Source of the DNA: an uncultured Thiotrichales bacterium
Lineage (GTDB): Bacteria > Pseudomonadota > Gammaproteobacteria > CAIRSR01
Assembly (NCBI GenBank): GCA_903881315.1
Contig: CAIRSR010000219.1
Location: 1-64,000 of the forward strand
Reading direction: 5' to 3'
Length of the DNA: 64,000 bases
The notes below the pieces were generated by a model. That model was not told the DNA's origin. It was given only the letters and a program-made list of their open reading frames with translations, and did no database searches. This document shows positions 1,534 to 4,393 of the stretch, piece after piece. Both the position numbers and the translations under genes were made by a program. How positions within the stretch are numbered: position 1 is the first letter of the stretch; the number at the start of each line of letters is the position of its first letter.

Positions 1534-3069
1534 ATGGAATTTCACCCGATCTATTATCGCGAGCGCCTGCAGATCATCAACCAATACGGGGACATCGGCA
1601 TCGCTACCCTATGGACGCCACCAAGCCGAGTGATTGGCCTGCTCGGCAAGCTGGGTATCGATCTGACCCCTGAGACATCGCGCGTCGCAGTCATTGCCAA
1701 CTTCTACGGCAAGGGACTCCCCGAACTCCTCCGCAACCTGCTCTGGAATCCCCAGATCACCCAACTGATAGTGCTCGGCCAAGACCTATCCGGGTCTCGG
1801 GATGATCTGGTAGCCTTTTTTGAGCACGGCATTGAGCCCACCCTATTCGTGGACACCAAGGCCTTTCGTATCAAGGGACGACGCAGGATCATCGATGGGC
1901 TCGTCACCAACGATTGCTTTCTGTCCCCGATTCGGGTCACGGCACTGGGTACGGTCACCGCCCCAGAAACCGCCCTCGCGCTCTCTGACTACTTCGTAAA
2001 CCTAGCGCCACCACCACCCCCACCAGAAGAGGATGAGCGCCTGTATGTTCCCATCCCAGAAAATAAGGTGACCAGGTTTCCCTCCGAGCCGAGAAGCCAC
2101 ACCATTGTACGCGCCTCCCCACTCGAGGCTTGGCTCGAACTCATCTTCCGGCTCTATCGCTTTGGGTACTGGGTAACGCTAGAAAAAGGCCAGCGCAAAG
2201 AATTACAGAATGTTCATGTGGTCGTCACCGAACCCGCCGACGACCCAGCAGAGGCCCTGGCTCGCTTTGGCTTTACCCTAGAGGGCCAGGAAGGCAGCCT
2301 GCGCCGCTACCAAACGGCCATCCTTGACCCAAGCAATCCCGAGGATCCTAGCCCCTTAGATGGGGACACTAGGCCAACCAGGTATTACACCTACGGCCAC
2401 CGGATGCGCGCCTATTTTGGCAAGGATAACCTAGCGGCCATTGTTGCTGAACTAAAGCGCCACCCAGAGAGTCGTCATACCTACCTGACCCTCTGGGACG
2501 CAGTGCGCGACCTCGAGCCTGGCGCAACCTCGCCGTGCCTCGTCTCGCTGTTCTTCCGCAGGTTCGATGACAAACTGACCCTCACTGCCACCTTCCGCAC
2601 CCACAATGCCCGCAATGCCTGGTTGGTGAACCTCTACGGGCTGATGGCGGTGCAGCGCCATGTGGCCTCTCAGGTAGACCTTCCGGTCGGGCCCATCACC
2701 GTGATAAGCCATTCTATCTCTATCCAGCAGGGCGACCTCGAAGAGGCGGCGAGTATCGTGAAGTCGCGGAAATCAGACGATACCCTCTATTTTAAAACGG
2801 GAAAATCTTCTTTGCGGGAGGATCCCAATGGCTATTTTACGGTAGCCATTGATCCGGAAAAGGCCGAGATCATCCTCGAACATATCCATGATGGCATGTC
2901 CTTGGCAAAATACCGTGGTAAAACCGCCAAAGAGATCCATGTCCAGTTAGAACGCGATACGGCCATCTCATTGGTCTCCCATGCGCTTTATATTGGCGAT
3001 CAGCTCGCACGAGCAGAAGCGAGACTACCTACTCGCCCAACCCAGCAACCCCAAGAAGCCGCGTTATGA
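1534..3069 (+). CDS. Thymidylate synthase-like protein with MtrA-like N-terminal region and DUF4346-like tail
   Basis: The 511-residue protein appears to have three parts. Residues about 20-150 resemble the tetrahydromethanopterin S-methyltransferase subunit A-like module (VAVIANFYGKGLPELLRNLL, LIVLGQDLSG). Residues about 320-400 resemble a thymidylate synthase core: SPC at 333-335 aligns with the catalytic Cys of TS, FRTH (354-357) with the phosphate-binding Arg segment, and Asn366 in WLVNLYGLM with the base-recognition Asn. Residues about 410-480 (REDPNGYFTVAIDPEKAEII) resemble DUF4346. TS-fold enzymes transfer a C1 unit from folate to C5 of a pyrimidine nucleotide (dTMP synthases, dCMP/CMP hydroxymethylases). 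The substrate here is unknown. It is the first gene of a trio, overlapping the next by 4 bases. Domain names are from memory of family patterns; the TS match is the most visible. Confidence 0.72.
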   Translation: MEFHPIYYRERLQIINQYGDIGIATLWTPPSRVIGLLGKLGIDLTPETSRVAVIANFYGKGLPELLRNLLWNPQITQLIVLGQDLSGSRDDLVAFFEHGIEPTLFVDTKAFRIKGRRRIIDGLVTNDCFLSPIRVTALGTVTAPETALALSDYFVNLAPPPPPPEEDERLYVPIPENKVTRFPSEPRSHTIVRASPLEAWLELIFRLYRFGYWVTLEKGQRKELQNVHVVVTEPADDPAEALARFGFTLEGQEGSLRRYQTAILDPSNPEDPSPLDGDTRPTRYYTYGHRMRAYFGKDNLAAIVAELKRHPESRHTYLTLWDAVRDLEPGATSPCLVSLFFRRFDDKLTLTATFRTHNARNAWLVNLYGLMAVQRHVASQVDLPVGPITVISHSISIQQGDLEEAASIVKSRKSDDTLYFKTGKSSLREDPNGYFTVAIDPEKAEIILEHIHDGMSLAKYRGKTAKEIHVQLERDTAISLVSHALYIGDQLARAEARLPTRPTQQPQEAAL

Positions 3070-3737
3070 TGGTTTTTCTCGATATTGGCTCAACCCTCCT
3101 CGGTGGCCCAGCACAAGGCCCCGCACAGCGCTTGCGGGAAATGCTGGCCCTTGGCGCAGAACACCTCCCGGCGATTACCAAAACGCTGTTCACCACGCCC
3201 TACACAACCCCTGAAGAACTTGCTGAAATCTTGACAGAACGCCTGCACCTCGCGCCCCCCGCAACACTAGAAGCCGTGGGACAGATATGGCACAATCAAC
3301 TGGCAGAGGCCTATGCCATACCAGGTTCGCAAGCGACTGTAGCAGCGCTTAGAAACGCCAACGTGTCGTGTGCCTACCTCTCGAATATCTGGCCGCCGTT
3401 TTTTGAGGGATTCGCCCGTTATTTCCCAACCGAAGCACACATGAGCCCCTGCTATCTTTCCTATCGCATCGGCCTCACCAAACCGGATCCGCTTTTCTTT
3501 CGTACCGCGCTCACCGAACTCGGCGTTTCACCACAAGACGCAATCATGATCGGCGATACTTACCAGGATGATATTGCCCCGGCTATCGCGCTCGGAATGA
3601 AGACCGTATGGGTTCTAGCCCGCCCAGAAAAAGAGCGAAAGGACATCGTCCGTGTCCTGAATAATACCGCGTCGGCACCGTCCCTCACCATCGCATCGAT
3701 TGGTGACCTTACCCTTGATCACCTAAGTGCACGTTAA
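3066..3737 (+). CDS. HAD superfamily hydrolase with altered motif I
   Basis: This 223-residue protein has the HAD layout: nucleophile Asp6 in VFLDIGST, an alpha-helical cap (about 15-100), motif II Ser in CAYLSNIW, motif III Lys in GLTKPDPLFF, and motif IV GDTYQDD at 163-169. HAD phosphatases carry DxD in motif I; here the second Asp, the general acid, is Gly8 (D-I-G-S-T). That argues against an ordinary phosphatase, although the nucleophile is kept. The gene starts inside the stop of the TS-like gene (ATGA overlap; a second ATG follows directly at 3069) and its stop overlaps the next start by one base. Translational coupling suggests a shared pathway, possibly handling a nucleotide product of its neighbour. 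No specific function is recognised. Confidence 0.82.
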   Translation: MMVFLDIGSTLLGGPAQGPAQRLREMLALGAEHLPAITKTLFTTPYTTPEELAEILTERLHLAPPATLEAVGQIWHNQLAEAYAIPGSQATVAALRNANVSCAYLSNIWPPFFEGFARYFPTEAHMSPCYLSYRIGLTKPDPLFFRTALTELGVSPQDAIMIGDTYQDDIAPAIALGMKTVWVLARPEKERKDIVRVLNNTASAPSLTIASIGDLTLDHLSAR

Positions 3738-4393
3738 TGACCAAACCACAACATCAGAGACTCGTCCGATTCGAGACTATCCCAGAAGCGACCCTGCTCG
3801 CCATGCTGAAGAACACTCGTCTCAAAGGACACGGGCAGCCCAGTATCTACGCCGAGGCAAGTCTCGAATTGGTGCGCATCGATCCGAACCTGTTACGACC
3901 CGCACAAAACTACGTTCTTGCCGAGGATGTCGAGACCATTCTCCAGCTACACGACACCTTCTGGAATCACGATATCGATATCTTTTCTCTACAAGGCGGA
4001 TTACGTTTCTGGCTCCAGGGAGAAGAAGACCATAATACCGAAGGGCCAATCCCGCTCATCCCGCCCATCATTGAAGAATCGATAGAACCCGACGGCACAA
4101 AGATCTTGCTCATCTGTGACGGTATGCACCGCGTCTATGCGGCGCGTGCGCGTGGCTCCCTCATCAATGTCGTGGTGGCGCGTGGCGTTCCCACCCAATA
4201 CCCTTATTACGCATTCGCGGTTCCTGGCGGTTGGGGTGATGTGCAACATCTGCCTTCTCTCCCGGATGGCTTTGTAAAAAAACACTATCGTGACGAACAG
4301 AACTACAAGGCATTATTCCGCGATTTTAATGCACTGTTGCCTGGGGTTCAGAAACAACGCAAGCGAACAAATCCCGGCCATCTGACACCATAA
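3737..4393 (+). CDS. ParB/sulfiredoxin-like domain protein of unknown function
   Basis: A 218-residue soluble protein whose start shares one base with the preceding stop (TAATG). The most telling motif is LLICDGMHRVYAARARG at about residues 126-142, which resembles the DGxHR loop of ParB/Srx-fold proteins, used there for nucleotide (CTP or ATP) binding or hydrolysis. The preceding segment (LRPAQNYVLAEDVETILQL) could be the first part of that domain. The C-terminal half (YPYYAFAVPGGWGDVQHLP, NYKALFRDFN) is not recognised. No signal peptide or membrane segment. As the third member of the TS-like/HAD/ParB-like operon it may bind or transfer a nucleotide in the same pathway; that is inference only. 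Confidence 0.6.
   Translation: MTKPQHQRLVRFETIPEATLLAMLKNTRLKGHGQPSIYAEASLELVRIDPNLLRPAQNYVLAEDVETILQLHDTFWNHDIDIFSLQGGLRFWLQGEEDHNTEGPIPLIPPIIEESIEPDGTKILLICDGMHRVYAARARGSLINVVVARGVPTQYPYYAFAVPGGWGDVQHLPSLPDGFVKKHYRDEQNYKALFRDFNALLPGVQKQRKRTNPGHLTP

Follow-up and report, generated by a model that had tools for sequence, protein, structure and literature searches.

The first gene of an overlapping three-gene unit in an uncultured Thiotrichales bacterium probably encodes a variant thymidylate synthase (TS) that makes dTMP from dUMP and serves as the sole dTMP synthase of its bacterium; we estimate the probability of this reading at roughly 75%. The unit lies near the start of the window, that is, the whole 64,000-nucleotide stretch of DNA that was analysed. 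The reading relies on the architecture of the 511-aa protein, its invariant active-site residues, the distribution of known thymidylate synthases and of dihydrofolate reductase (FolA) among the genomes that carry the gene, and the conservation of its neighbours.

Architecture of the fusion protein and its locus

Judged from its sequence, the 511-aa protein consists of the two halves of a bacterial MtrA-like/DUF4346 protein and, inserted between them, a TS domain of the archaeal type (Table 1). Residues 1-160 align with methanogen MtrA and with free-standing proteobacterial MtrA-DUF4346 proteins, and the C-terminus of the latter aligns with residues 429-498 of the fusion, where PterinBD-DUF4346 (PF14251) scores 56.5 bits against a gathering cut-off of 29.6. 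Most of the class-wide matches to PF14251 span only about positions 58-86, and these were not counted as relatives. A PDB sequence search with the N-terminal 159 aa yielded no significant match. The MtrA-like N-terminus noticed in the initial annotation is genuine, and the MtrA-type C-terminal DUF4346, which had gone unmentioned there, is also present after the TS domain; the proposal of an unusual pterin module in a pyrimidine-nucleotide context is supported.

Table 1. Features of the three-gene unit (window positions)
Feature	Position	Strand	Length	Remark
TS-fusion ORF	1534-3069	+	511 aa	Proposed thymidylate synthase
MtrA-type Rossmann-like domain, residues 1-160	1534-2013	+		Corrinoid ligands absent
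TS domain, residues about 186-411	2089-2766	+		Nearest archaeal type
Cys335 codon	2536-2538	+		Counterpart of E. coli ThyA Cys146
Asn358 codon	2605-2607	+		Counterpart of E. coli Asp169; Asn in 64/68, Asp in four deep-branching members
Asn366 codon	2629-2631	+		Counterpart of E. coli Asn177; 68/68
PterinBD-DUF4346, residues 429-498	2818-3027	+		C-terminal half of MtrA-DUF4346 proteins
HAD-family ORF	3066-3737	+	223 aa	Pfam HAD hydrolase, about 49 bits
Parb-CE ORF	3737-4393	+	218 aa	Pfam Parb-CE (PF24392), 124.8 bits

The central domain matches Pfam Thymidylat_synt (PF00303) at residues 286-410 with 30 bits (cut-off 24.3) and, over residues 198-404, the NCBIfam model of archaeal-type TS (TIGR03283) with 103.7 bits, which does not reach the curated cut-off of that model (174.55). 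No Pfam match to the ThyX family (PF02511) was found in the protein. The best full-domain similarity is to the archaeal, or methanogen-type, enzymes, with which the fusion has the motifs YTYGxRxRxYF, KELQN and PCL in common.

The TS and HAD reading frames overlap by 4 bases and the HAD and ParB-like ones by 1 base, and the trio reported in the initial annotation is confirmed. In a congener (G001) we observed the identical trio with identical overlaps, the TS being 75% identical to that of the window, and in both genomes the trio is followed by DsbD-UbiE-RDD-UbiB genes. The same TS-HAD-ParB trio is found again in Magnetococcales, Acidobacteriota and Actinomycetota. The congener copy and this recurrence across three phyla exclude a chance association, and the trio may be regarded as a conserved unit, as had been supposed. 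Immediately upstream of the TS gene the window has an Rpn-family (transposase_31) ORF (412-1425), which is missing from the corresponding position in the congener; a lipoprotein-like gene precedes the TS gene there instead. Promoter and terminator scans gave results at chance level.

Both partners have well-conserved motifs. Motif I of the HAD protein is D6-x-G8-x-T10, that is, DxGxT as opposed to DxDxT, with the second Asp replaced by Gly in all 34 sequences compared; it thus departs from the phosphatase motif I DxDx[TV], while the Lys and acidic motifs (K139, D164/D169) are conserved. Given this replacement, the HAD protein may not be an ordinary phosphatase. The match of the third protein to Parb-CE is to be compared with a gathering cut-off of 23 bits, and its DGxHR motif is invariant in 51 of 51 sequences (D128, G129, H131 and R132, 100% each); a PDB sequence search with this protein produced no significant match.

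Active site and predicted fold

Residue conservation was assessed in an alignment of 68 homologues belonging to many phyla. Five residues, C335, R314, R355, N366 and Y287, are invariant (68/68) and correspond, in this order, to Cys146, Arg126, Arg166, Asn177 and Tyr94 in the E. coli ThyA; the pair P334-C335, likewise present in all 68, is aligned to the catalytic Pro-Cys (PC146) of solved thymidylate synthases. The suggestion of a TS-like enzyme with Cys335 in its active site is borne out by this alignment. In E. coli ThyA, Cys146 is the catalytic residue, Arg166 and Arg126 bind the phosphate, and Asn177 recognizes uracil; Asp169 contacts the pterin of the folate, and the His207-x-Tyr209 pair (HIY) the 3'-OH of dUMP.

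The last two features are both retained only by the deep-branching members L167, L169, L170 and L171, whereas the other 64 have lost both, SISIDP standing in place of HIY in this derived clade. Such a pattern suggests a single remodelling of the active site across the 64 members. With Asp169 and His207-x-Tyr209 lost, the contacts to the sugar and to the pterin would differ from those in ThyA, and another uracil nucleotide is a possible substrate. The archaeal TS member of our set (L172), unlike the fusion, is a stand-alone protein of about 210 aa that keeps Asp169 and HIY.

The titles of two PDB entries (6l18, T4 dCMP hydroxymethylase D179N with dTMP; 1njc, L. casei TS N229D with dCMP) show a switch in which Asp accompanies a cytosine ligand and Asn a uracil one. 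Hence Asn366 marks a predicted uracil, rather than cytosine, substrate.

The AlphaFold2 model built with the 68 sequences, which replaced an earlier 17-sequence model (pTM 0.50), has a pLDDT of 93.4 and a pTM of 0.85. Its best PDB matches are TS-fold enzymes, with target TM up to 0.79; AfhB, a phage FAD-dependent dCMP hydroxylase, is matched at 0.75-0.79, and MilA and many TS were matched as well. The comparison with TS and MilA proposed in the initial annotation was thus run, and the predicted fold matches both. MilA, T4 gp42 and AfhB share the TS fold with the window protein and are among its nearest structural matches (target TM 0.57-0.79), but they use cytosine nucleotides, whereas the window protein has Asn at the discriminating residue.

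Thymidylate synthases, FolA and gene neighbours in the carriers

The recognised de novo thymidylate synthases fall into two kinds, ThyA and ThyX. In the window genome (94% complete) the fusion ORF is the sole PF00303 match, and a genome search revealed no ThyX and no other ThyA; neither was found in the genome of the congener (98% complete). The sister genus G002 has an ordinary ThyA (E=2.4e-120) and no fusion. In the tree, the window and congener genes group with those of Acidobacteriota, Magnetococcia, Actinomycetota and Thiotrichaceae, but apart from the Thiotrichaceae members. This placement, together with ThyA in the sister genus, fits a horizontal gain followed by the loss of thyA, the genus still carrying folA in both species. 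Another sister-genus genome (G003, 98% complete) has FolA and no match to ThyA, ThyX or MtrA-TS.

A homologue scan of 84,980 species resulted in 78 loci, in Magnetococcales, Acidobacteriota, Thiotrichaceae, Desulfacinum, Synergistaceae, Myxococcota, Actinomycetota, Roizmanbacteria, Woese-/Pacearchaeota and others; within the phylum, full-length homologues were found in other classes, most of them in Magnetococcales. All 18 further carriers that were tested, mostly Magnetococcales, lack another ThyA, ThyX and FolA. A ThyX search and a ThyA and DHFR profile search, in the latter of which the positive controls worked, were applied to 38 further genomes (39 entries, one being a duplicate of G469): 30 of them have neither ThyA nor ThyX, ThyA is present in eight (six Actinomycetota, two Roizmanbacteria), and ThyX was seen once, in Actinokineospora. 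Altogether, neither synthase was found in 50 of the 58 fusion genomes, many of the carriers being incomplete metagenome bins; strain Smac51, one of the 50, is a complete chromosome. ThyA or ThyX is present in 14/14 control genomes.

The initial annotation had interpreted the locus as a small uncharacterised modification pathway. The TS-like enzyme and the conserved unit stand, but since a second thymidylate synthase is usually missing from the carriers, a modification pathway is less likely than a housekeeping dTMP step. Genomes without TS have been attributed to thymidine salvage (PMC5954106), and salvage could feed some of the carriers.

As ThyA converts tetrahydrofolate to dihydrofolate, it depends on FolA (PMC9931769). 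A ThyA-like functional coupling to FolA is not seen for the fusion, although both species of the window's genus that carry it keep FolA. Among the 50 carriers without ThyA and ThyX, which belong to several phyla, FolA is absent or unclear in 48: it is absent in 18/18 of one set and not clearly present in 30/30 of the other non-ThyA carriers, three Desulfacinum having a weak half-length DHFR-like match. On the other hand, FolA is present in all six Actinomycetota carriers that have ThyA. Two control methanogens have a PF00303 TS and no FolA. Thus, FolA tracks ThyA rather than the fusion gene, which suggests that the fusion enzyme leaves no dihydrofolate for FolA; an unrelated reductase could serve instead. 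FolA-free dTMP production would be a property in common with ThyX, which has another fold and no sequence similarity to the fusion.

The Parb-CE gene is the most widespread partner of the TS gene, being found upstream or downstream of it at 52 of the 78 loci, and the HAD gene accompanies the two in Gammaproteobacteria, Magnetococcales, Acidobacteriota and Actinomycetota. A dCTP deaminase gene, and sometimes Maf, comes after the trio in Magnetococcales, and a ComEB-type dCMP deaminase is encoded near the fusion gene in Desulfacinum, Synergistaceae and termite-gut Myxococcia; both deaminases lead towards the supply of dUMP, in separate lineages. The Actinomycetota loci also contain genes for divergent ThyA, FolA, deaminase-like, HIT and cytidylyltransferase-like proteins, and given these nucleotide-related neighbours the role of the fusion in Actinomycetota may differ. 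At four of these loci (L134, L137, L138, L142) MtrA-TS is found together with divergent ThyA, HIT and deaminase-like proteins, and with FolA in three of the four.

PADLOC reported nothing, and a role in defence was dropped. No match to the fusion was found in plasmids or viral contigs; a phage origin was rejected as well, the phage matches covering mainly the TS domain and none of them 80% of the protein.

Proposed reaction and alternatives

For the dTMP synthase that we propose, we infer the following reaction. As in ThyA, Cys335 would attack the uracil at C6, and C5 would receive a one-carbon unit supplied by a tetrahydropterin. On either side of the TS domain, the MtrA-type Rossmann half and DUF4346 probably serve to bind the pterin or some other cofactor. 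Reduction of the methylene would follow, with a hydride from a source other than the tetrahydropterin ring, or else the dihydropterin would be reduced again without FolA; either variant would account for the lack of FolA in most carriers. The ParB-like and HAD proteins are probably accessory. In its strictest form, this scheme would constitute a third mechanistic class of TS, scaffolded by MtrA/DUF4346, which would methylate dUMP with the carbon of a C1-tetrahydropterin and a hydride from an external source, do without FolA and need a ParB-type partner for its activity; we advance it tentatively, its odds being a little short of even.

The fusion could also make dTMP just as ThyA does, methylene-tetrahydrofolate supplying the carbon and the hydride alike, with a reductase unrelated to FolA acting on the dihydrofolate and with flanking domains of a regulatory nature. 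The fusion indeed resembles ThyA (EC 2.1.1.45, PF00303) in the fold, the catalytic Pro-Cys, the phosphate arginines, the uracil-specific Asn and the counterpart of Tyr94, and the window's genus has retained FolA. However, it differs from ThyA in being inserted in an MtrA/DUF4346 protein and, in the derived clade, in the absence of the His-x-Tyr pair; the change of the pterin contact Asp169 to Asn in 64/68 homologues and the 48 carriers in several phyla with FolA absent or unclear make ordinary chemistry rather unlikely.

Another possibility is that the product is a different C5-substituted uracil nucleotide, such as 5-hydroxymethyl-dUMP or a ribonucleotide, dTMP being obtained by salvage or from an unknown synthase. 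The loss of the pair contacting the 3'-OH is consistent with this, as are the top structural matches to MilA and the phage TS-fold dCMP enzymes and, in Actinomycetota, the adjacency of the fusion to ThyA, FolA and nucleotidyltransferase-like genes; in addition, according to a review, the TS-less species of the COG set carry tdk (PMC5954106). But 50 carriers in many phyla would then have to live without any known de novo route to dTMP, and the dCTP or dCMP deaminase genes adjoin the gene in separate lineages, so we consider such a product improbable.

An MtrA-like half also raises the question of a corrinoid, which the initial annotation had mentioned. MtrA (tetrahydromethanopterin S-methyltransferase subunit A) holds cobalamin via His84 and Glu54 (PMC4915002). 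In the alignment with the 5laa chain, YGxGLP replaces HTENLG in the TS fusion and the His84 loop has lost its GH, while the GAIPF..EN segment is missing from the aligned TS-fusion members; the stand-alone MtrA-DUF4346 relatives retain HTENLG and GHLPGQS. Hence, a corrinoid in the TS fusion is unlikely, both cobalamin determinants of MtrA being lost. A corrinoid-dependent methyl transfer to uracil via this half would agree with the alignment of both halves, around the TS insert, with MtrA and MtrA-DUF4346 proteins, but the window protein differs from these in its missing ligands and its inserted domain, and we regard such a transfer as very improbable, the more so as free-standing proteobacterial relatives kept His84 and Glu54.

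Four of these free-standing proteins were found in gammaproteobacteria (L034, 8194-9414, minus strand; L035, 7883-9013, plus; L036, 8569-9696, minus; L037, 2354-3544, minus). They have an N-terminal CWRCGCFQ motif and keep His84 and Glu54 despite their non-methanogen hosts; judged from reading the sequences, their neighbours encode ArsR-like regulators and small multidrug-type transporters and, in L034, also a P-type ATPase.

The hydroxymethylation of dCMP or CMP by an enzyme of the MilA or T4 gp42 type, also envisaged in the initial annotation, would agree with the common fold and with MilA among the top structural matches, but is barely credible with Asn, which the 6l18 and 1njc titles pair with uracil, at position 366 in 68/68 homologues where the cytosine-using relatives have Asp.

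In the open-access literature we found no description of MtrA with TS, of ParB with TS, of DUF4346, or of a third thymidylate synthase. The absence of both ThyA and ThyX from about 50 genomes of several phyla could be explained by this one gene, and a role in one-carbon metabolism is suggested for both DUF4346 and a ParB-fold protein. FolA is the target of trimethoprim, and if the dTMP synthase reading is true, it predicts indifference to this drug and explains the origin of thymidylate in Magnetococcales. The experimental study of archaeal-type thymidylate synthases has been described as scarce (PMC9931769), and the fusion would then provide a bacterial handle on these enzymes.
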